Origin: a virus
Length of the DNA stretch: 64,000 nucleotides
Strand: one strand, 5' to 3'
IMG/VR virus record: IMGVR_UViG_3300042562_001046
Location: 1 to 64,000 of that record
The position numbers and the translations under genes are program-made. Of the stretch, positions 45,068 through 61,789 are shown one piece after another (positions within the stretch are counted from its first letter, which is position 1; each line of letters begins with the position of its first letter). Below the pieces are notes generated by a model, which saw only the letters and a program-made list of their open reading frames with translations, ran no database searches and was not told the DNA's origin.

Positions 45068-45267
45068 TGATCAGTCTGACCTGGGATGAAAGATCGGGAG
45101 ACGGCGAAGGAAAAGTCCGCATACAGAAAAACTTCCTCAAGGAGCACCGCATAACCCAACTAGACGGCTTGAAGGACTGGATTGGCGAGCTGACCAATAT
45201 CTACGAAGACATGCTTACTAACGAGACCCTTTTCTCACCCCTAAACCACAAAAACCCAACACCATGA
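45061..45267 (+). CDS. 68-aa protein before the AAA ATPase gene
   Basis: MLMISLTWDERSGDGEGKVR and a helix (QLDGLKDWIGELTNIYEDML). Starts within the last codons of the previous gene (alternative ATG at 45067) and overlaps the ATPase gene by 4 bp, so it belongs to the ATPase operon. No family known. Confidence 0.55.
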   Translation: MLMISLTWDERSGDGEGKVRIQKNFLKEHRITQLDGLKDWIGELTNIYEDMLTNETLFSPLNHKNPTP

Positions 45268-46250
45268 AACCATCCAGCATCCGCACAGTCATACCCAAAC
45301 TCATCGCCAAGCAGCGCCCTGTCTTCATCTGGGGCCCACCCGGCGTCGGCAAGTCTGACGGCGTGGCCCAGATTGCCAAGGACATGAAGCTCGAGCTGCG
45401 CGACGTTCGCCTGTCCCTGCTCGACCCGATCGACCTGAAGGGCTTTCCCGTTGTCGACGCCGTCAAGAAACAGATGAAGTGGCTTCCTGCCGACTTCCTA
45501 CCCACCAAGGGCAAGGGCCTGCTGTTCCTGGACGAGATGAACAGCGCCCCGATGGCGGTCCAGGGCGCAGCCTACCAGCTGGTGCTCAACCGCAAGATTG
45601 GTGACTACAAGCTGCCCGACGGCTGGGCTGTGCTGGCTGCAGGCAACCGCTCCGGCGACCGTGCCATCGTTCATGCCATGCCGTCCGCGCTGGCCAACCG
45701 CTTCGTTCACCTGGACTACGACGTCAACGTAGACGACTGGAACATGTGGGCAATGGAGAACGGCATACACGACCACATCCGTGGCTTCATCCAGTTCCGC
45801 CCGGCGCTGCTGCACAGTTTCGACCCCGCCACCAACCCACGTGCCTTCCCAACAGGGCGCAGCTGGATGTTTGCCAACGACATCTACCAAGACGAACACC
45901 CCGCAGCCGAGGAGTTCGAACTACTCAAGGGCACCGTCGGCGAAGGCGCTGCAGCTGAGTTCAGCGGCTACGTCAAGCAGCTGCGCGATCTGCCCAGCGT
46001 CCCTCAGGTGCTGATGGACCCAGACGGCACCAAGCTGCCCTCATCCCCCGCTGCCAAAGCCGCCATGGCTGCAGCCCTGGACCCAGCCACCACGGTCGGC
46101 AACATCGCCCGCGTCATGAAGTACATCGAGCGCATGCCGGTCGAGTTCGGTGCTGTGTTCATCCGCTCCATCATCCGGCGTGACAGCAAGCTGACCAGCA
46201 CCAAGTCCTACATGGACTGGACCATCAAGAACCAGGCCGTGTTGACCTAA
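45264..46250 (+). CDS. MoxR-type AAA+ ATPase
   Basis: 328 residues. Walker A GPPGVGKS (24-31), Walker B LLFLDEMN (about 85-92), sensor-1 region VLAAGNRSGDRAIVHAMPSA and an Arg-finger context (LANRF) place it in the MoxR/dynein-like AAA+ group. Such ATPases work as chaperone-like remodelers together with VWA proteins, and a VWA/metallopeptidase gene lies four genes downstream in the same unit. The C-terminal third (TVGNIARVMKYIERMPVEFG) is typical of phage MoxR proteins. Substrate unknown. Confidence 0.85.
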   Translation: MKPSSIRTVIPKLIAKQRPVFIWGPPGVGKSDGVAQIAKDMKLELRDVRLSLLDPIDLKGFPVVDAVKKQMKWLPADFLPTKGKGLLFLDEMNSAPMAVQGAAYQLVLNRKIGDYKLPDGWAVLAAGNRSGDRAIVHAMPSALANRFVHLDYDVNVDDWNMWAMENGIHDHIRGFIQFRPALLHSFDPATNPRAFPTGRSWMFANDIYQDEHPAAEEFELLKGTVGEGAAAEFSGYVKQLRDLPSVPQVLMDPDGTKLPSSPAAKAAMAAALDPATTVGNIARVMKYIERMPVEFGAVFIRSIIRRDSKLTSTKSYMDWTIKNQAVLT

Positions 46251-46266
46251 CCACAAGGAGTCCTTT

Positions 46267-47088
46267 ATGTTGCAAGAACGCGCCATGCTCGCCCAGCTGT
46301 CCATCTCTCAGTGGACGGCCCGCAAACACGACAAGTCCGTGTCGGCCGAAGTGGAGAAAGCCCACGCAGCTCACAACGCCGGCCGGTTCAACAAGGACCT
46401 GGTCGACAAGGCGCTGCTGGAGCCCATCACCAAGCTGGCCGGCCAGGTGCGTGAGTTCCACTACGACAAAACCCTGGCCTGGAACGACTCAGGCGCCCGG
46501 CTGCTGCCCAGCATCCTGTTCGCGGACTACTCCACCAAGATCCGGCACTTCCGGCGAGAATTCGACCGCCTGGTCGACGACATGGTCACTCAGTACCCCG
46601 TCGAGGTTCAGGCAGCCCGCAACCGGCTGGGCACCATGTACAACCCGGGCGACTACCCAGACCCCCAGGAAATCAAAGACCGGTTCCAGATCAAGATCGA
46701 GTTCGAGCCTGTCCCCAACGCCAACGACTTCCGCGTCGACGTGGGCCAGGAAGCCGCTGACGAGATCCGCAGCTCCATCACGCAGGGTGTGCTCGACCGC
46801 CAGGCCGACGCCGTCAAAAGCACCTACAAACGCATCCATGACGTGGTGTCTAAGGTCTATGAAAGACTGTCCGTAGAAGATGCGATCTTCAAGGACACCC
46901 TGATCAAGAACGTCCGGGATCTGTGTGTCGTGCTGCCGGCGTTCAACCTCAACAACGACCCGGCCATCACCGCGCTTCACACCGCCCTGCTCGACCTGAC
47001 CGATGTCAGCATCCAGCAGCTGCGCGTGGATACAAGGCTGCGCCAACGCACCGCCAACAAAGCACAGGCCATCCTGAACACGCTGTGA
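46267..47088 (+). CDS. MoxR-operon helical protein (DUF3150-like, tentative)
   Basis: 273 residues, mostly helical. LSISQWTARKHDKSVSAEVE opens it, then FHYDKTLAWNDSGARLLPSI, AARNRLGTMYNPGDYPDPQE and a C-terminal LIKNVRDLCVVLPAFNLNND. Proteins of this type, which I recall as DUF3150-like, sit between MoxR and VWA genes in other phages. The constant partnership suggests it is a component or client of the ATPase complex. AAGGAG precedes the ATG. Confidence 0.7.
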   Translation: MLQERAMLAQLSISQWTARKHDKSVSAEVEKAHAAHNAGRFNKDLVDKALLEPITKLAGQVREFHYDKTLAWNDSGARLLPSILFADYSTKIRHFRREFDRLVDDMVTQYPVEVQAARNRLGTMYNPGDYPDPQEIKDRFQIKIEFEPVPNANDFRVDVGQEAADEIRSSITQGVLDRQADAVKSTYKRIHDVVSKVYERLSVEDAIFKDTLIKNVRDLCVVLPAFNLNNDPAITALHTALLDLTDVSIQQLRVDTRLRQRTANKAQAILNTL

Positions 47089-47327
47089 TTGACGAAGTCG
47101 CTGAAACCTACCTCGTCATGGAGGCTCTCGATGACCTGGCTCGTCGCGACTTCATCTGGGACAAGAACCGGCTCGTTTACCAGCGGCTCACTCCCACCGC
47201 CCGAGTCTGGTGGTGGCGCATGGCCAAAGTCAACGCCACAGCTGGCATCCCCTCCATGCAGCAGCTGCTCACCAAAGTAATCACTCTGAGACTTACTAAA
47301 AATGACGTGGTCAATATCAACTCGTAG
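47085..47327 (+). CDS. 80-aa Trp-rich basic protein
   Basis: GTG 47085 overlaps the previous stop (GTGA). It reads VAETYLVMEALDDLARRDFI then RLVYQRLTPTARVWWWRMAK with three consecutive Trp, and a C-terminal hydrophobic TKVITLRLTKND. Coupled to the MoxR operon. No family known. Confidence 0.55.
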   Translation: MIDEVAETYLVMEALDDLARRDFIWDKNRLVYQRLTPTARVWWWRMAKVNATAGIPSMQQLLTKVITLRLTKNDVVNINS

Positions 47328-47328
47328 C

Positions 47329-48024
47329 ATGGTCTGCATCAGCTCGTACGAGCAGGCGCTGGCGCACTGGAAGAAGACCAAGTCGTGGGCCAACAACGAC
47401 CGCCCGTTGTCCGGCCGGCGTGAAAAAAATAAAGCGCTGCGCAAACTAACCGACGGCAGCTTCGAGTGCCGCTTGTACGAAACGCCACTGGTGACCTATC
47501 ACCCGGCGGGCCAGGTCACTCTTCTCACCGACGACAGACTTTCTAGTCGGATGTTCATGGAACGTGTTGCGCCGCTCCACTGCTCCCCTGTGTCTGCTCA
47601 AGGAAGGACGTTCTGGGAGATCAGGACTCGTGACGGCGCGCAGTTTCGCCTAAACCGAACTGAAATAATACCCAACGACGACAAGACCTGGCGGGTCCTG
47701 TACAGCACGGGCCAAGCCACAGAACAGTTCAGAGACAAGTCGCTGTGCGCCAAGATCCGGCGCAACCTAAAGATGTACGCCAACTGGTACGGCGTGACCA
47801 GCCGCCTGATGAACTTGCCCGGTGGAGGCCACGTTGCACACCTGTCCAATACACGTCTGACACAGCTTACTGAGCGCCCGCTCGAACCTGAATCCTTCAT
47901 GGAATTTGCCGGCGAAGCGGGAGACCCCTGCCGCTACTCGTTCTACGACCACATCTTTCGGGCCACCGGCGCCCTTCGAACTATCCCCGTCCCTTTTGAC
48001 CGCCTACCCAGGAACGCCCCATGA
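47329..48024 (+). CDS. 231-aa protein of MoxR operon
   Basis: ATG 47329 is preferred because it starts two bases after the previous stop; ATG 47302 would overlap. Beta-rich with KLTDGSFECRLYETPLVTYH, EIRTRDGAQFRLNRTEIIPN and NLKMYANWYGVTSRLMNLPG. No motif recognised. It overlaps the VWA gene by 4 bp, so it probably works with it. Confidence 0.6.
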   Translation: MVCISSYEQALAHWKKTKSWANNDRPLSGRREKNKALRKLTDGSFECRLYETPLVTYHPAGQVTLLTDDRLSSRMFMERVAPLHCSPVSAQGRTFWEIRTRDGAQFRLNRTEIIPNDDKTWRVLYSTGQATEQFRDKSLCAKIRRNLKMYANWYGVTSRLMNLPGGGHVAHLSNTRLTQLTERPLEPESFMEFAGEAGDPCRYSFYDHIFRATGALRTIPVPFDRLPRNAP

Positions 48025-49103
48025 ACAAAGAAATTGCTGACAAAATCACTCACGCCCGCACCTCGCTGATCATCGACCAGCCGTTCCTCGGCATGCTCGC
48101 CTTGCGTCTCACGATGGTGGAGGACACCGGCATCAAAACCCTGGCGGTCGACGGCAAGCACATCTACTACAACCCCACATTCGTCGGCACGCTGTCCCTG
48201 GAGCTGCTGATCTCAGCCCTGGCCCACGAGGTGTTCCACTGCGTGTACGACCACATCGGACGCCGGGGCGGCCGTAACCCACGCAAGTACAACCAGGCGG
48301 GCGACTATGTCATCAACGCCACCCTCAAAGACGCCGGCATGCCCATCAGCCCAAACTGGCTCTTTAACGCCGGGTATGCCGGTATGTCGAGTGACGAGAT
48401 CTACAACCTGCTGCCCGACGATGACGGCCACGGCAACGACCCCCTGGATGAAGTCCGGGACGGTGACCCGAACGACACGGAGGAAATGGCCGTCGACTGG
48501 AAGATCGCCACGATCGAGGCAGCCAACGCAGCTGAGAAGTTCGGCAAGCTGCCCGCCAGCATGAAGCGCTTTGTCGAGCAGCTGACCAGAGCCAAAGTCG
48601 ACTGGCGTGACGTCCTGCGCCGGTTCATCACCCAGCGCTCGGCAGATGACTACACCTGGCTGCGCCCAAACCGGCGCTTCATCCAGCAGGGCCTGTTCCT
48701 GCCCACGCTCTACTCAGAGTCCATGGGCGAGGTGATCGTCTGCATCGACACCTCAGGCTCCATCGACCAGGCCACGCTCGACGCGTTCGGGTCTGAGATC
48801 AAAGCCGTGGTGCAGTCGACCCGCCCTACTCTCACCCACGTCATCTACTGTGACGCTGCTGTCAACCACGTCGATGCGTTCGGGCCCAACGACGACCTGA
48901 ACTTCGCCATGCACGGCGGCGGCGGCACTGACTTCCGCCCACCCTTCGAGTACGCAGCCCAAGAACAGATCCAGGCCAGCTGCCTGATCTACCTGACCGA
49001 CGGCTACGGCCCGTTCCCCCAGACAGCTGACTTCCCCGTCCTGTGGGTCATGACCACAGACGTCGTCGCCCCGTTTGGCGACACCATCCAGATCGAGATC
49101 TAA
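48021..49103 (+). CDS. metallopeptidase-like / VWA protein (DUF2201 type)
   Basis: 360 residues. The N-terminal domain carries the zinc motif HEVFH (H69, E70, H73; also H78) after LISALA. The C-terminal VWA-like domain has the MIDAS start DTSGS (about 243-247), a later GGGGTDFRPPFEYA and LIYLTDGYGPF. This is the DUF2201 layout (peptidase-like domain plus VWA) that accompanies MoxR ATPases. It probably binds a partner or substrate through the VWA domain while MoxR supplies force. Whether the HExxH is proteolytic is not known. Confidence 0.85.
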   Translation: MNKEIADKITHARTSLIIDQPFLGMLALRLTMVEDTGIKTLAVDGKHIYYNPTFVGTLSLELLISALAHEVFHCVYDHIGRRGGRNPRKYNQAGDYVINATLKDAGMPISPNWLFNAGYAGMSSDEIYNLLPDDDGHGNDPLDEVRDGDPNDTEEMAVDWKIATIEAANAAEKFGKLPASMKRFVEQLTRAKVDWRDVLRRFITQRSADDYTWLRPNRRFIQQGLFLPTLYSESMGEVIVCIDTSGSIDQATLDAFGSEIKAVVQSTRPTLTHVIYCDAAVNHVDAFGPNDDLNFAMHGGGGTDFRPPFEYAAQEQIQASCLIYLTDGYGPFPQTADFPVLWVMTTDVVAPFGDTIQIEI

Positions 49104-49105
49104 CC

Positions 49106-49555
49106 ATGTCAGAAAAAAGAGAACTCATCGTTCAGCAGCTCCGTGACCTCGGCATCACCCGCTGCGTGATCAGCTACAGCGGAGGTGGCGACAGCGGACA
49201 GATCGAGGACGTCACGTGTTGGACTAACGTCCCCGGCGGAGAAGAAATAGTCGACGCCGAAAAACTACAAAAAGCTGCCCAGACGGAAGAACAGTTCATC
49301 GTGACCCAGGTGACAGACCGTCTCCTCGGCGAAAAAACCAGCCCGCTGAACCAGCGCATCGAAAACCTGGCCTACGAGCTGCTGGAGGAAGCTGGCGTTG
49401 ACGACTGGGTCAACAACGACGGCGGCGCGGGGACCATCACAGTCTTTGTGGAAGACGGAAGCAGCAAGGAGGATGGCGACTTCGAAGCCGGCCAGATCCT
49501 GATCAGCCAGGACACTTACGAAACCACATCTCACAACAACACGTACACCCTATGA
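49106..49555 (+). CDS. DUF6878-like protein
   Basis: 149 residues from ATG 49106. The opening RELIVQQLRDLGITRCVISY with SGGGDSGQIEDVTCWT follows the DUF6878-type pattern (Y-x-G-x-GDSG-x-IE). The C-terminal half has VDDWVNNDGGAGTITVFVED. Activity unknown. Overlaps the next gene by 4 bp; the two families commonly travel together. Confidence 0.6.
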   Translation: MSEKRELIVQQLRDLGITRCVISYSGGGDSGQIEDVTCWTNVPGGEEIVDAEKLQKAAQTEEQFIVTQVTDRLLGEKTSPLNQRIENLAYELLEEAGVDDWVNNDGGAGTITVFVEDGSSKEDGDFEAGQILISQDTYETTSHNNTYTL

Positions 49556-49905
49556 CCTCCCCCATCTTCCACTCCATGACCAGCGTCAAGCGCTGGGGCG
49601 GCGCTGCTGAGGACTACACACCCATCCACGACTGGCTGGATGCAACCAAAGAGAGCTTCGCTGACTTCCGCCACCGTGCCCTGCGCCACCACAGCCAGGG
49701 CTGCTTCGAGGCTGAGCGGGTATTCGGCCACAGCATCACCAACAGCGCCGGCCGTGTGGTGCCGGTGCGCTACATCGCTGAGATGCACATCCAAGAAGAC
49801 TGCGGCGGCCGGATCCCGACCGTCTCCGACTGGTTCCGAAACATCAAGCCCGAAGTCTGGATGAGCCGCGGCTACAGCACGCCAGAAGAAGAATGGACGA
49901 CATAG
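49552..49905 (+). CDS. DUF6915-like protein
   Basis: 117 residues. HSMTSVKRWGGAAEDYTPIH, DWLDATKESFADFRHRALRH with HSQGCFEAERVFG, VPVRYIAEMHIQEDCGGRIP and PTVSDW match the DUF6915 pattern, with several conserved His. A metal-dependent role is imaginable, but none is established. Confidence 0.7.
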   Translation: MTSPIFHSMTSVKRWGGAAEDYTPIHDWLDATKESFADFRHRALRHHSQGCFEAERVFGHSITNSAGRVVPVRYIAEMHIQEDCGGRIPTVSDWFRNIKPEVWMSRGYSTPEEEWTT

Positions 49906-50123
49906 GCTTCCAGTCTGGCGAGTTCAACCCGCTGATCGAGTACGTCAAGATTGGCAACAAGGGTGTGGGCGAGATCAGCCTGGAGGGCGACCAGTGGCGC
50001 TTCCACCACTGGGGCGGCGTAACGGGCAGACTCAGTGCCGCAGAGATGGCTGCTGTGATGGCCGCTGTCAGCGACCGCATCACCATACTCACCGTCACCC
50101 ACCGGCTGCTCAAAGAAAGGTAA
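49893..50123 (+). CDS. 76-aa protein
   Basis: MDDIGFQSGEFNPLIEYVKI, a beta stretch (EISLEGDQWRFHHWGGVTGR) and a C-terminal helix (AAEMAAVMAAVSDRITILTV). Starts inside the end of the DUF6915-like gene. Small alpha/beta protein, unknown function. Confidence 0.55.
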   Translation: MDDIGFQSGEFNPLIEYVKIGNKGVGEISLEGDQWRFHHWGGVTGRLSAAEMAAVMAAVSDRITILTVTHRLLKER

Positions 50124-50127
50124 TGCC

Positions 50128-50751
50128 ATGACTGAATCTGAAGTCGAGGAAAAGACTGAATTCCTGTACGACGAGCTAAGCCCAAAAGCTCAGGAGGCTG
50201 CTCTACGGTCTGAAACCGAGAGCGAATATTTTATGGACTTCGACTGGTGGGACTACGTGTACGAAGACGCTGTACGTATGGCAGAAATGCTGGGTATCTC
50301 CATCCACAAGAAAGACAAACACGGCTGGAGCATCTGGTTCTCAGGGTTTTGTAGCCAGGGCGACGGCGCCAGCTTTGAAGGTGCATACCGGTTTGAACCC
50401 GACGCCATCCAAAAAATCCAGCAAGAAACCAATGACCCTGAACTTTTGCGCATCGCCACAAAACTGACCACCATGCAGCTGACCCAGCGGCTGCTGGGGT
50501 TTGAGCCGTTTTACGGTGCCATCTTGGGCCCTAACCACGGCTACAACGTCCGCACAGATATCCACGACTGGGGCATCGACGAAATCGGCGAACCAGACGA
50601 AAAGGATTTTCAAGAACTGATGCAAGACTTTGCCGACTGGATCTACGAACAGCTCGAGACAGAAAACGACGGCCTACGCTCAGACGAGACCGTCGCCGAA
50701 AACCTCCGTGCCCGAGAAATAAAGTTTGACGAGTTTGGCAGTCCGACTTAA
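50128..50751 (+). CDS. 207-aa antitoxin-like phage protein
   Basis: ELSPKAQEAALRSETESEYF, WWDYVYEDAVRMAEMLGISI and SIWFSGFCSQGDGASFEGAY match a phage family often annotated as antitoxin of a toxin-antitoxin stability system, although the sequence shows no toxin partner nearby. The C-terminal half is acidic and helical. AAGG precedes the ATG. Role unproven; interaction with host defence or toxin systems is only a hypothesis. Confidence 0.6.
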   Translation: MTESEVEEKTEFLYDELSPKAQEAALRSETESEYFMDFDWWDYVYEDAVRMAEMLGISIHKKDKHGWSIWFSGFCSQGDGASFEGAYRFEPDAIQKIQQETNDPELLRIATKLTTMQLTQRLLGFEPFYGAILGPNHGYNVRTDIHDWGIDEIGEPDEKDFQELMQDFADWIYEQLETENDGLRSDETVAENLRAREIKFDEFGSPT

Positions 50752-50752
50752 C

Positions 50753-50772
50753 ATCTAAGATCTAACTTAGAA
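50753..50772 (+). promoter_or_regulatory. ATCTAAGATCTAACTTAGAA motif before nuclease gene
   Basis: Contains the perfect 11-bp palindrome TCTAA-C-TTAGA (50761-50771) directly preceded by another ATCTAAG half. The site ends 14 bp before ATG 50786 and opens the DNA-metabolism block. Confidence 0.55.
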
Positions 50773-50785
50773 ATGAAAGCAGTCT

Positions 50786-51493
50786 ATGGCTAAATCCTGG
50801 TCTTTCTCGAAGCTCGGTGACTTCGAGAAGTGCAAAAAATACTTCTGGCTTAAGCACGAGCAGAAGATCCCAGAGCCAGAACGTCCGCTGCCACCCGGCA
50901 AAACTGAGCACGCCAACGATCGTGGCAGCCGGGTTCACGACAACTGCGAGGGCTACGTCCGAGGCGACCACGACGCCCTGGCCCCAGAGGCTGAGAAGCA
51001 CTTCGGTGCCAAGCTCGACCTGATGCGCACCCTGCACGCAGAGGGCATGGTCTCCCTCGAAGGTGAGTGGGGTTTCGACAACGAGTGGGTCATCGCCCCC
51101 TACGCCAACGCGTGGCTGCGCATGAAGCTCGACGCCATGGTCGAAGTGTCAAAAGACCAGGCCGTCGTGATCGACTACAAAACCGGCCGCAAATTCGGCA
51201 ACGAGGTCAAGCACGCCCAGCAGCTCCAGCTCTACGCGCTGGCCACCTTTCTGCGACGCCCAAAGCTCGAAGTGGTCCAAGCTGACCTCTGGTACCTGGA
51301 CGTCAACGAAGTCACCTCCCAGGTGTTCACCCGCGACCAGAGCCTGCGCTTCATCCGCAGCTTCGAGAAGCGCGGCAAAGACATCATCGCCTGCTCGACC
51401 TGGCCGGCCAACCCAAACAAGTGGAGCTGCCAGTGGTGCATGTACGGCCCTGAGCACTCCGGTCACTGTGAAGTAGGAGTTAGAAAAGCATGA
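50786..51493 (+). CDS. RecB/Cas4-like PD-(D/E)XK nuclease
   Basis: 235 residues. The N-terminal SFSKLGDFEKCKKYFWLKHE and RGSRVHDNCEGY match the PDDEXK_1 (RecB/Cas4-like) family. The active site is MKLDAMVE with VVIDYKTGR (about residues 113-135) and QLQLYALA downstream. The C terminus has CQWCMYGPEHSGHC, Cys/His residues that could hold a metal or Fe-S cluster as in Cas4-type nucleases. It overlaps the helicase gene by 4 bp. A role in DNA end processing or recombination with the helicase is likely. Confidence 0.8.
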   Translation: MAKSWSFSKLGDFEKCKKYFWLKHEQKIPEPERPLPPGKTEHANDRGSRVHDNCEGYVRGDHDALAPEAEKHFGAKLDLMRTLHAEGMVSLEGEWGFDNEWVIAPYANAWLRMKLDAMVEVSKDQAVVIDYKTGRKFGNEVKHAQQLQLYALATFLRRPKLEVVQADLWYLDVNEVTSQVFTRDQSLRFIRSFEKRGKDIIACSTWPANPNKWSCQWCMYGPEHSGHCEVGVRKA

Positions 51494-52908
51494 TCAAACC
51501 CTTCGCGCACCAAAAAGTCTCCGTCAAACACAACGACGGCTCGCCGATCGTCTTCGACTGCAGCGACCCCGGCACAGGCAAAACCTTCGTGCGGATCGCC
51601 GGGTTCGCCAAACGCCGCGCCAAGGGGAGTGGTGCCATGCTGGTGCTGGCGCCGCGCTCCCTGCTGCGCTCGGTCTGGGTCAACGACATCCGCAAGTTCG
51701 CCCCGCAGCTGACCACCTCTGTGGCCGACGCCGCCAACCGTGCCGAGGCCTTTGCCCAGGACGCCGACGTCTACATCACCAACGTCGACGCGGTCAAGTG
51801 GCTGGCTACGCAGAAACCGGCGTTCTTCAAGAAGTTCAGCGAGCTGGTCGTCGACGAGTCAACCGCCTACAAACACCACACCAGCCTGCGCAGCAAAGCC
51901 GCTGCCAAGATCTCCCAATACTTCAAGTACCGCTGCTGCATGACCGGCACGCCCAACTCCAACACCATCACCGACATCTGGCACCAGGTTCAGATCCTGG
52001 ACGCTGGCAAGCGGCTGGGCTTCAGCTTCTACAAGTTCCGCGACGCGGTCTGCACACCACACCAGGTCGGCCGCAGCGCTCAAGCCATCCGCTGGCAAGA
52101 CAAAGACGGCTCAGAAGAGGCCGTTTTCGGGCTGCTGTCTGACATCGTCATCCGGCACAAGTTCGAAGATTGCGTCGACATCCCAGCCAACCACCAGTAC
52201 CCGATCGAGTACGAGCTGACGCCGCGCCAGATGAAGGCCTACCTTGAGCTGCAGGACACCCAGATGCTGATGCTGAGCTCCCGCGTCAAAGGAGCGCCAG
52301 GCACGCCCAACATCCTGGCCATCAACGCCGCTGCCGTGGCTACCAAGCTGCTGCAGGTTGCCTCCGGTGCTGTCTACGACGGCATGGGTGGCTACCAGGT
52401 GATCGACACCGCCCGCTACGAGATGATCCTGGACCTGGTGGAGCAGCGCAAGCACAGCCTGGTGTTCTTTCTCTGGAAGCACCAGCGAGACGCCCTGCTC
52501 AAAGAAGCAGAAAAGCGCGGCATCTCGTTTGCCGTGATCGACGGCAACACCTCTGACCGCGACCGCGACGAAATCATCCAGGGCTACCAGGCAGGCGTCT
52601 ACCAGACGATCTTCGCCCACCCCAAGTCTGCTGCCCACGGGCTGACGCTGACCAAGGGCACGGCCACGATCTGGGCCTCACCCACCTATGACCTGGAGAT
52701 CTTCAAACAGGGCAGCAAGCGCCAGCACCGGCTGGGACAGACCCAGAAGACAGAAACGATCGTGCTGCTGGCAAAGGACACGATCGAACAGCGGGTCTAC
52801 GACCTGATGCTCGGCAAAGACGCCCGCATGACCAACCTGCTGGACCTGTTCGGGCTGGCTGTGCCGGCGGTCGTAGCTCGTAAAAAGAAAGTGGCGGAAA
52901 CAGCATGA
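51490..52908 (+). CDS. SNF2-like superfamily 2 helicase
   Basis: 472 residues. Walker A DPGTGKT (26-32), Walker B VVDEST (121-125), motif III MTGTPNSN, and motif VI QGSKRQHRLGQTQKT (about 407-421) define a SNF2/RAD54-like SF2 ATPase of the compact phage type. It would translocate on double-stranded DNA during replication or recombination. Its neighbours (nuclease before, polymerase after, both overlapping by 4 bp) imply a coordinated complex. Confidence 0.85.
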   Translation: MIKPFAHQKVSVKHNDGSPIVFDCSDPGTGKTFVRIAGFAKRRAKGSGAMLVLAPRSLLRSVWVNDIRKFAPQLTTSVADAANRAEAFAQDADVYITNVDAVKWLATQKPAFFKKFSELVVDESTAYKHHTSLRSKAAAKISQYFKYRCCMTGTPNSNTITDIWHQVQILDAGKRLGFSFYKFRDAVCTPHQVGRSAQAIRWQDKDGSEEAVFGLLSDIVIRHKFEDCVDIPANHQYPIEYELTPRQMKAYLELQDTQMLMLSSRVKGAPGTPNILAINAAAVATKLLQVASGAVYDGMGGYQVIDTARYEMILDLVEQRKHSLVFFLWKHQRDALLKEAEKRGISFAVIDGNTSDRDRDEIIQGYQAGVYQTIFAHPKSAAHGLTLTKGTATIWASPTYDLEIFKQGSKRQHRLGQTQKTETIVLLAKDTIEQRVYDLMLGKDARMTNLLDLFGLAVPAVVARKKKVAETA

Positions 52909-54995
52909 CCTGGTCCTCCGCACTCAAGAAACAAACTCAAAGGGCCAGGCCGGTCTATGCCGGCTTCAAGCGCCCGAGTTTTCCCGCACACAAAGTCGAC
53001 TGGCCCCGTCTGGTCAGCCTCGACTTTGAGACTTTCTACGACGACGAGTACACCCTCAAAAAGCTGTCCACGTCTGAGTACGTCCGTGACTCCCGTTTCA
53101 AAGCTCAAATGCTGGGCATCAAGGTTGGCAATGGCAAAACCCGAATCGTCGCGCCGAAGAACATCCGCGCTGAGCTGGCCAAGATCAATTGGTCGACTCA
53201 CGCTGCTCTCTGTCATAACACTCAGTTTGATGGTTTTATCCTTAGCCATCACTTTGGCGTCCATCCCGCTTTCCTATATGACACGCTATCCATGGCTCGC
53301 GGCCTGCATAGCAACGACATCGGTGCTGGTCTGGATGAGGTGAGCATCTTCTACGGCGGGCAGGGCAAGCTCGAAGGGCTTGAGCGCACCAAGGGCGTGT
53401 TCAACTGGGACAAAGCGCTCTTCTCCAGCACGTCGGTCTACTGCGCCAACGACGTCGACGAGATGTTCCGGGTGTTCAAAGAAATGCTGCCGGCCATGCC
53501 CAACGACGAGATGCACCTGATCGACCTGACCTGCCGAATGTTCTGCAGCCCGGTGCTCAAAGTCGACATCCCCCGCGTCGAGAAAGAGCTGGTGCGGGAG
53601 CTGGCGCTGCGCAAAGATCTGATGTTCGCCGCGGTCAACCCCGACGACTGGCGCGACGCCAAGCTGCTCAAAACCAAGGAGCGGCTGCTCGATCAGGAAG
53701 AACAGGACATCACCATCATCAAGCGTGTCATCGGCTCTAACGAGAAGTTTGCCGGGCTGCTGACCGCCGAAGGTGTTGACATCCCAATGAAAATCAGCCC
53801 CGCCTGGATGAAAAAGTCCAAAGACGAGCGTGAAGAGCACATCGACAGCAAATACAGCTTCGCCTTTGCCAAAGACGACACCGACTTCATCGAGCTGCCC
53901 AACCAGGTGGACAGCTGGGGGCTGGACCCCAACAAAGCCAGCGACGTGGCGCTGATGGCCGTCAAACAGGCCCGGCTGCAGGCGCTGGTCGACGTGCGGA
54001 TCGCTGTCAAGTCCACCACCAACGTGACGCGGGCACAGCGCTTCCTGAACGCCGGTGCCAACAGCTGGTCGCTGCCCTGCGGCTATGCCTACTACCGAGC
54101 GCACACCGGGCGCATGGGCGGGCAGAACAAGATGAACATGCAGAACCTGCAGCGCGGCGGTGAGCTGCGCCAGTCCATCCTGGCGCCCAAGGGCCACGTG
54201 GTGGCGGTCCAAGACAGCGGCCAGATCGAGTGCCGCGTCAACGGCTGGCTCTGGGGCCAGACTGACCTCCTGGACGCGTTCCGAGATGCGGACGCCGGCA
54301 CCGGTCGTGATGCATACTGCAACTTTGCCGACAACATCTACGGCCGCGAGATCACCAAAGTCGACAAAGACGAGCGCTTCGTCGGCAAGGTCTGCGTGCT
54401 GGGCCTGGGCTTCCAGATGGGAGCACCCAAGCTGCAGATGACCTTCGCCAAAGGTGCGCTGGGTGGCCCACCGGTGTACTTCGAGCTGGACAAGTGCAAG
54501 GCGATCGTCAGCACCTACCGCGCCAAAAACTACCGCATCGAGCAGGGCTGGGGCATCTGCAAAACGATCATCGAAGACATGGCTGCTGGCACCGAGGGCA
54601 GCTACGGCCCAATCAACTGGGAGTTTGAGACGATCTGGCTGCCCAACGGCATGGCCCTCAAGTACCCCGGGCTGCGCAAGCAGGCGGGTGACAAGGGCTG
54701 GGACGAGTGGAGCTACCAGGCCAAAGACCAGCGCAAGAAGATCTACGGCGGCCTGCTGTGTGAGAACCTGGTGCAGGCGCTGGCCCGCATCATCGTGATG
54801 ACTCAGATGCTGTGGATCTCCCGCAAGTACCGTGTGGTGATGACCACCCACGACGAAACCGTCGCGATCGCCAAGACAGCCCAAGCCGAGCGCTGCTTGA
54901 GCTTCATGGCAAAAAGTATGAGCACCCCCCTCCCCTGGTGTCTCGACATTCCGCTGAACTGTGAAGGGGGGTATGACGTCAACTACAGCAAGTGA
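52905..54995 (+). CDS. polA: DNA polymerase, family A
   Basis: 696 residues. The N-terminal 3'-5' exonuclease has DFET (D40, E42), HNTQFDGF (about 104-110) and YCANDVDE (about 179-186). The polymerase domain has motif A VQDSGQIECRVNGW (about 435), a divergent motif B VGKVCVLGLGFQMG (about 493-506) and motif C THDETV (about 648). The motif A and B residues differ from textbook Pol I (DYSQIELR, YG), which is usual for phage family A enzymes. It is the main replicative polymerase candidate, with primase and helicase at 38-40.5 kb. Confidence 0.9.
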   Translation: MTWSSALKKQTQRARPVYAGFKRPSFPAHKVDWPRLVSLDFETFYDDEYTLKKLSTSEYVRDSRFKAQMLGIKVGNGKTRIVAPKNIRAELAKINWSTHAALCHNTQFDGFILSHHFGVHPAFLYDTLSMARGLHSNDIGAGLDEVSIFYGGQGKLEGLERTKGVFNWDKALFSSTSVYCANDVDEMFRVFKEMLPAMPNDEMHLIDLTCRMFCSPVLKVDIPRVEKELVRELALRKDLMFAAVNPDDWRDAKLLKTKERLLDQEEQDITIIKRVIGSNEKFAGLLTAEGVDIPMKISPAWMKKSKDEREEHIDSKYSFAFAKDDTDFIELPNQVDSWGLDPNKASDVALMAVKQARLQALVDVRIAVKSTTNVTRAQRFLNAGANSWSLPCGYAYYRAHTGRMGGQNKMNMQNLQRGGELRQSILAPKGHVVAVQDSGQIECRVNGWLWGQTDLLDAFRDADAGTGRDAYCNFADNIYGREITKVDKDERFVGKVCVLGLGFQMGAPKLQMTFAKGALGGPPVYFELDKCKAIVSTYRAKNYRIEQGWGICKTIIEDMAAGTEGSYGPINWEFETIWLPNGMALKYPGLRKQAGDKGWDEWSYQAKDQRKKIYGGLLCENLVQALARIIVMTQMLWISRKYRVVMTTHDETVAIAKTAQAERCLSFMAKSMSTPLPWCLDIPLNCEGGYDVNYSK

Positions 54996-60594: not shown

Positions 60595-60926
60595 CCACTG
60601 AGCCGCTGCGCATCCTGAACCTGCAGGAGGCAGCGGCGTTGCTGCGCGTGCACAAATCCACCTTGTCCGGCCAGGCAGCAGCGGGGCTGGTCCCCGCTGG
60701 CAAGATTGGTCGAGCCTGGACGTTCATCGAGTCTGACCTCGTCGCACACCTACGAAACCAATACCTATGTCCCTCTACAAACAGCCCAGCAGTGAAATCT
60801 GGTGGGCCTACCTCACGCACCAGGGGGAGCGGCACCGCTTCTCGACTGGAGAAACTGATCGCGCTGCGGCGAAACGAGTTCACGACGAGCGCAAAGCCGC
60901 GCTCTGGAAAGAAACCCCTGCCCTAA
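60591..60926 (+). CDS. excisionase-like HTH protein overlapping integrase
   Basis: 111 residues. LNLQEAAALLRVHKSTLSGQ then AAAGLVPAGKIGRAWTFIES and DLVAHLRNQY is a MerR/HTH_17-type DNA-binding fold like those of excisionases. The remaining 50 residues are basic and low-complexity and are read in a different frame from the integrase start, overlapping it by 160 bp. A translational link to the integrase and a role in directionality are likely but not proven. Confidence 0.65.
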   Translation: MTTEPLRILNLQEAAALLRVHKSTLSGQAAAGLVPAGKIGRAWTFIESDLVAHLRNQYLCPSTNSPAVKSGGPTSRTRGSGTASRLEKLIALRRNEFTTSAKPRSGKKPLP

Positions 60927-61789
60927 AAGGCAAGACCTGGAACAACGCCATCGAGAAATGGCTGGACGCTGCCCCGCGCTCATATTCCGAGCTGCTGGGC
61001 ATCAAGAAGTTCAACCTGTACTTTCCCGACCGGCGGCTCAACAGCATCACGCCAGAGCTGGTTAACGAGGCCCTGTCGAAGTATTGCAAGACCGGGGCCA
61101 CCTACACGCGGCATCGGGCGCGTGTCGCTGGGATCCTGAACATGAACGGGGTGATCCTCAAACTCGACACCCGCAAGGTCAAGAAGAAGGCCCGTACCTG
61201 GCTGACCCACGAGCAGTGGGCGGCTCTGTACGCAGAACTACCGCCGCACATGCAGCCAATGGCAGAGTTTGCGGTGGAGACCGGTCTGCGCCAGTCCAAC
61301 GTGCTGAAGCTGGCATGGGACCGCGTTGACGTCAAACGCCGCCTGGTATGGATCGAAGCTGAGGACATGAAGGGCGGCACCGCCATCGGGATCCCCCTAT
61401 CAACTGGAGCACTGCGTGTCCTACAAGCCCAAACCGGGAAGCACCCTGAGTTCGTCTTTACGTACCAGAAGCGCCCCATCAAAGAAATCAAGACCGCCTT
61501 CATCGCCGCCTGTGTCCGAGCAGGAGTTGGTCGCATGGTGGACGGAGCGTATCGTGGGTTCACCTGGCACGGCTTTCGCCACACCTGGGCCACCTGGCAC
61601 GTCCAGAACGGCACCCCACTCGACGTCCTTCAGAAGCTAGGCGCCTGGAAAGACCACCGGATGGTGCTGAATTACGCCCACCACTCGCCTGGGCACTTGG
61701 CGAGTTTTGCTGACAACGCGAAGGAAAAATCATGCCTGACGCCGACGACTACTTCTGCATCGGTACCGACGGACGCCTCTGGATCCTAG
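60767..61789 (+). CDS. int: tyrosine recombinase (phage integrase)
   Basis: 340 residues. A SAM-like DNA-binding N terminus (MSLYKQPSSEIWWAYLTHQG) and a core with R175 (ETGLRQSN), a Lys in DMKGGTAIGIPLS, HGFRH (H268, R271), then LGAWKDHRMVLNYAHHS with Y303 as the nucleophile. The set is R-K-H-R-(H/W)-Y, complete. It integrates the phage at a tRNA gene; attP with a tRNA-Val 3' end lies 0.9 kb downstream. Confidence 0.95.
   Translation: MSLYKQPSSEIWWAYLTHQGERHRFSTGETDRAAAKRVHDERKAALWKETPALKGKTWNNAIEKWLDAAPRSYSELLGIKKFNLYFPDRRLNSITPELVNEALSKYCKTGATYTRHRARVAGILNMNGVILKLDTRKVKKKARTWLTHEQWAALYAELPPHMQPMAEFAVETGLRQSNVLKLAWDRVDVKRRLVWIEAEDMKGGTAIGIPLSTGALRVLQAQTGKHPEFVFTYQKRPIKEIKTAFIAACVRAGVGRMVDGAYRGFTWHGFRHTWATWHVQNGTPLDVLQKLGAWKDHRMVLNYAHHSPGHLASFADNAKEKSCLTPTTTSASVPTDASGS

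Follow-up and report, generated by a model that had tools for sequence, protein, structure and literature searches.

What does a phage gain from a MoxR-type AAA+ ATPase, and which neighbouring genes work with it? The question is raised by the viral contig IMGVR_UViG_3300042562_001046 (IMG/VR record, 66775 bases), of which the first 64,000 nucleotides were analysed here (hereafter the window). Between positions 45264 and 49103 the window encodes such an ATPase (MoxR), three proteins of 273, 80 and 231 aa (P273, P80, and P231), and a DUF2201 protein that combines a zinc-peptidase-like domain with a VWA domain (the VWA protein). An initial annotation had read the five genes as one operon for a remodelling system that may act on host machinery, capsid assembly, or anti-phage systems. 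The best explanation, to which I would give a probability of roughly 0.42, involves only three of them: MoxR, P273, and the VWA protein may form an ATP-driven remodelling machine with a DUF3150 adaptor, acting at the replication or establishment of mobile DNA and not in virion assembly, with proteolysis as an optional activity.

Conservation of the three-gene unit in viruses

A search with P273 as query returned 26 viral loci, and a search with an alignment of VWA proteins returned 80. In every locus of the first set that held both flanks, MoxR, P273, and the VWA gene were found in the same order and on the same strand. The second set holds the closest VWA relatives and thus describes that lineage rather than all phages; here, 41 of the 43 loci with at least 4 kb of upstream DNA showed the arrangement MoxR-P273-VWA, and the other two were without P273. 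Where relatives had sufficient flanking DNA, exonuclease, helicase, and polymerase genes in most cases lay 3' of the trio. The pairwise distances of the three proteins were correlated at r 0.93-0.95, and none of 2000 permutations gave values as high. Judged from these comparisons, the conserved unit is MoxR-P273-VWA and its members share one history, so that gene order was conserved for three genes and not for all five.

The five open reading frames were found where the initial annotation had placed them, all with coding-like codon-position GC content, and the family and motif matches of the block are not due to chance. The operon itself fared less well. P80 had a single detectable relative, in locus L005 (34% over residues 7-70, E 5e-10), while P231 had no relative in the IMG/VR viral contigs, no Pfam match over the cut-off, and no PHROG match. 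The start of P80 overlaps the end of P273 by 4 bp, and such 4-base overlaps and short gaps extend upstream into the genes p111 and p68; in total, a run of near-abutting or overlapping genes spans from ~44.7 kb to the end of the DNA polymerase gene at 54995. A consensus-based scan, as distinct from transcript data, found no terminator-like site on the + strand between 45 and 55 kb. Because the overlaps and short gaps run on both upstream and downstream, the five genes do not form a natural unit.

The N4-like, jumbo, Thermus, phage G, and Vequintavirus-type loci examined yielded no hidden P273; the best candidate there (E 0.03) did not lie between MoxR and the VWA gene and was rejected. In a tree of MoxR and VWA sequences, P273-bearing members stood apart from pair-only members (two label changes; the L094 row was unresolved). 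Plasmid members fell at two places in this tree, one beside viral contigs and one beside a cyanophage, sitting in or beside phage forms at both, and the tree of P273 repeated the join of the cyanophage with Rhodovastum. The trees came from quick searches and contain some long branches, and no direction of transfer is claimed. What is new is that P273, a divergent DUF3150 protein, regularly accompanies the MoxR-VWA pairs of one lineage as their third component.

The trio on bacterial plasmids

P273 matched 44 plasmid records, 16 of them typed as conjugative, from Burkholderia, Paraburkholderia, Cupriavidus, Caballeronia, Variovorax, Rhodovastum, and other genera. Plasmids carrying the trio belonged to the Burkholderiales and Acetobacteraceae, and the cyanophage DUF3150 protein, when used as query, retrieved 42 records from the same plasmid genera. 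The ATPase, P273, and VWA genes followed one another in this order in all 11 plasmids inspected, with several genes between the ATPase and P273 in Simplicispira, and type IV secretion genes lay 3' of the VWA gene in six. None of the 11 gave a match to the terminase large subunit (TerL) or to portal, for both of which the window's own record returned E <1e-107. The presence of the MoxR-P273-VWA trio on bacterial plasmids, many of them conjugative, is also new. Within the class of Herminiimonas, P273 was found in one of 274 genomes, namely the starting genome itself, so that in this class the module belongs essentially to mobile elements.

Two further features of plasmid loci are mentioned here for completeness. 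A PRTRC cassette (ThiF-like, A, B, and F proteins) was located upstream of the trio in L037, L039, and L044; PRTRC genes occurred within ~11 kb upstream in just 3 of the 11 plasmids, and a link is not claimed. Two-gene MoxR-VWA relatives without P273 were found in Rhodococcus pRLLBG43 (L139), Synechocystis pSYSA (L140), and Sphaerotilus (L046), with CRISPR RAMP, toxin-antitoxin, DUF262, or Sir2 genes as neighbours, a hint that the two-gene form may serve in defence.

Properties of the three proteins

The motifs named in the initial annotation were all present: in MoxR, Walker A (GPPGVGKS) at residues 24-31 and Walker B (LLFLDE) at residues 86-91, and in the VWA protein, HEVFH at residues 69-73 and DTSGS at residues 243-247. 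MoxR matched phrog_1297 with E 1.7e-99, scored over the Pfam cut-off for AAA and exactly at the cut-off for AAA_3 (27 bits), and has relatives in 815 phage records. Its AAA+ core (Walker A and B, the sensor-1 residue N128, and the arginines R146 and R199) was kept in 107-109 of 109 aligned relatives, which together with the genetic pairing with a VWA protein places it in the MoxR family. A bpMoxR profile run on the operon proteins reached E 0.067, below the cut-off. Kinship with CobS was dismissed, since the match to phrog_249 ('porphyrin biosynthesis'), with E 2.8e-8, was far poorer than that to phrog_1297.

The VWA protein matched DUF2201_N (E 9.8e-49) and DUF2201 (E 1e-24), with HExxH and the metal ion-dependent adhesion site (MIDAS) both present, and relatives were found in 744 phage records. 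The MIDAS residues D243, S245, S247, and T303 were present in 125 of 125 VWA proteins and D327 in 124 of 125. HExxH was intact in 123 of the 125, including all phage members examined, and D95 and N99 were conserved in nearly all members. Loss of HExxH was confined to two plasmid lineages: L037 and its relatives L135 and L136 have lost all three HExxH residues plus N91, D95, and N99, and L040 and L137 have lost H69 and E70 and carry a changed N99. In these lineages the ratio of non-synonymous to synonymous substitutions (dN/dS) of the VWA gene was 0.09-0.12, which corresponds to purifying selection, and MoxR still has Walker A, the asparagine of sensor-1, and a pair of acidic residues in Walker B. 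The joint change of D95 and HExxH in L037 suggests that D95 helps to bind metal. The zinc-peptidase-like domain thus appears to be usually intact and not indispensable, and for this reason remodelling rather than cleavage is probably the core activity.

PHROG 1314 is labelled 'HNH endonuclease', yet its members match the DUF2201 metallopeptidase-VWA protein. The label has been carried into many RefSeq and other phage records (e.g. NC_055784, NC_023719, NC_071039), and the present analysis corrects it.

P273 is best described as a divergent relative of DUF3150 (PF11348) and not as a curated member, since the window protein misses the cut-off while its homologues and its predicted fold agree. 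PF11348 was matched by 14 of 15 aligned P273 family members, at best with 9.3e-7, and one homologue record scored over the curated cut-off; P273 of the window gave no PF11348 hit and is therefore below the Pfam gathering score. A confident AlphaFold2 model consisted chiefly of long helices, with a predicted local distance difference test (pLDDT) value of 89.5. Its best viral fold match was a DUF3150 protein (E 2e-20, template modelling (TM) score 0.87). A fold search of the PDB gave nothing below E 0.001, with generic helical proteins at the top, and a profile search of the PDB returned just weak, short matches. Over 108 members, 27 positions were at least 93% conserved, including W16, D22, K43, and P131. 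In locus L017, P273 is truncated near residue 146. A literature search found no paper naming DUF3150, and the family hereby gains a partner set.

Comparison with known systems

The initial annotation has good support where it saw a remodelling pair of MoxR and VWA proteins encoded by a phage, but such a pair was already described (PMC7824862; N4 24/25, PMC4193335). It is not new, as hundreds of phages encode relatives. Group 2.2 jumbo phages have the same two families in adjacent genes, including the fusion of metallopeptidase and VWA, and a function in virion assembly and processing was proposed for them (PMC7824862). In N4-like phages (Schitoviridae), gp24 is the MoxR and gp25 the DUF2201/VWA protein; they are core genes sited with early and middle replication genes and are themselves middle, not late, transcripts (PMC4193335). 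The N4-like pair is either direct or interrupted by small or HNH genes. The trio differs from jumbo and N4-like forms in its DUF3150 partner, which was not detected in those of their loci that were checked, and in being additionally found on plasmids.

NorQ-NorD, CbbQ-CbbO, and RavA-ViaA likewise consist of a MoxR motor and a VWA co-chaperone. These systems serve metabolic enzymes, and none of them is known to have a zinc-peptidase fusion or a DUF3150 protein. Midasin (Rea1, MDN1) is the closest solved sequence to the ATPase, and its MIDAS domain is among the best fold matches of the VWA protein, but it is a single giant eukaryotic protein of ribosome assembly. For NorQD, it was described that a finger of the VWA protein is inserted into the pore of the MoxR ring and that MIDAS grips the target (PMC9976466, PMC13036017). 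Finally, MoxR-vWA cores are used in ternary conflict systems, which also have a conserved third protein (PMC7159879). The third protein of the trio is DUF3150 and not VMAP, iSTAND, FtsH, or a beta-propeller, none of which was found as a partner in Pfam scans of the operon proteins, and the carriers of the trio are phages and plasmids.

Possible functions of the trio

In the proposed machine, a MoxR hexamer would be the motor, the VWA protein would act as co-chaperone with its MIDAS site gripping a target, and P273 would serve as an adaptor or scaffold that only this subtype has. The machine would act inside a newly entered cell, when mobile DNA is replicated or established. I infer the formation of a complex, the adaptor role of P273, and the stage of action. 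By analogy, the pattern of MIDAS and ATPase invariance fits a division of labour like that of NorQD. The neighbouring exonuclease, helicase, and polymerase genes in phages, and the middle transcription of N4 gp24 and gp25, point towards a role in replication or establishment. Several considerations weigh against this interpretation. Viral loci were chosen by similarity, and counts of gene order are consequently not independent samples. Position in an operon is by itself no proof of a replication function, the check for virion genes on plasmids covered TerL and portal, leaving room for other phage remnants, and the role of the trio on plasmids may differ from that in phages. A bolder version of the remodelling machine, in which the trio is an establishment machine common to phages and conjugative plasmids, with DUF3150 as a dedicated adaptor and a dispensable zinc peptidase, and targets a complex, of the host or of replication, that stands in the way of either kind of element, is conceivable but doubtful.

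Virion assembly is the function proposed in print for group 2.2 jumbo phages, where an analogy with a tail chaperone of an Acidianus virus was drawn (PMC7824862). Here, the machine would be an assembly chaperone and maturation peptidase that remodels and cleaves structural proteins, which would agree with the retention of HExxH by phages and with roseophage N4-like phages that encode virion proteins near gp24/25 (PMC4193335). However, the trio adjoins replication genes on the strand opposite to the structural block, its N4 homologues are middle genes, and purifying selection maintains it on plasmids in which neither TerL nor portal was found. Because of these plasmids, virion assembly is unlikely to be a task common to phages and plasmids, the capsid assembly role suggested initially is disfavoured, and I regard this explanation of the machine as quite improbable. 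The plasmid-borne form without detectable packaging genes separates virion assembly from the other explanations, and plasmid transfer or maintenance offers a genetic system for testing trio function without phage particles.

Anti-defence or host-directed action is possible, and no report was found of a target of phage MoxR-VWA proteins. A machine that takes apart or disables a host complex directed against invaders, one that phages and plasmids alike encounter, would account for the sharing of the trio between phages and conjugative plasmids and for the type IV secretion genes in six of 11 plasmids, and early or middle expression during infection would fit. Known defence and anti-defence families gave only weak generic matches, though (for PADLOC families, ATPase-domain matches with E 0.0017 or worse). 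Counter-defence is unlikely, yet a serious rival. A zinc domain that cleaves a host protein in favour of infection would explain why HExxH, D95, and N99 are so widely conserved, but is very unlikely given that two plasmid lineages have lost the zinc motif while keeping MIDAS, ATPase, and P273. The least probable explanation is a defence or exclusion system of mobile elements against competitors. It draws on the cellular conflict systems with MoxR-vWA cores (PMC7159879) and on the two-gene plasmid relatives beside RAMP/CRISPR, toxin-antitoxin, DUF262, or Sir2 genes; yet the P273 lineage is distinct from those pairs, none of the conflict partners listed above was found, and the phage trio is embedded among replication genes and not in an accessory locus.

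Gene layout and phage context

Table 1. Genes of the block and its downstream neighbours (window coordinates).
Feature	Position	Strand	Length	Remarks
MoxR-type AAA+ ATPase	45264..46250	+	328 aa	phrog_1297; N4 gp24 family
P273, divergent DUF3150 protein	46267..47088	+	273 aa	mainly helical; conserved third component
P80, small accessory ORF	47085..47327	+	80 aa	GTG start; outside conserved core
P231, accessory ORF	47329..48024	+	231 aa	frame open from ATG 47302; outside conserved core
DUF2201_N zinc-peptidase-like domain + VWA domain	48021..49103	+	360 aa	phrog_1314; N4 gp25 family
DUF6878, small ORFs, exonuclease, SNF2-type helicase, DNA polymerase	49106..54995	+		downstream genes, same contiguous run

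The structural genes of the window (terminase, portal, major head protein) were located left of 35 kb, on the strand opposite to the trio. Comparing the right-hand part of the window with phage sequences by megablast gave no match, and no N4-type virion RNA polymerase was found among the large window proteins scanned. A tyrosine integrase is encoded at 60767-61789, from which the phage is probably temperate; taken with a related locus in a contig of Herminiimonas sp. CN (L041), this integrase suggests a temperate phage with a betaproteobacterial host.

The gene directly 3' of the VWA gene encodes a DUF6878 protein (49106-49555). The DNA polymerase of a related phage (L017, 16898-20437) matched in three pieces separated by gaps of ~840 and ~860 bases, which suggests inteins or introns. 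MoxR itself was found in two pieces in some phages, with one such split surrounding an annotated HNH endonuclease, and in other phages homing or HNH endonuclease genes lie between MoxR and the VWA gene; the loci concerned are those of Klebsiella phage Pylas (H24) and Pseudoalteromonas phage pYD6-A (H26), L001 10418-11914, and L129 4486-4986. The MoxR locus looks as though homing elements had struck it repeatedly.

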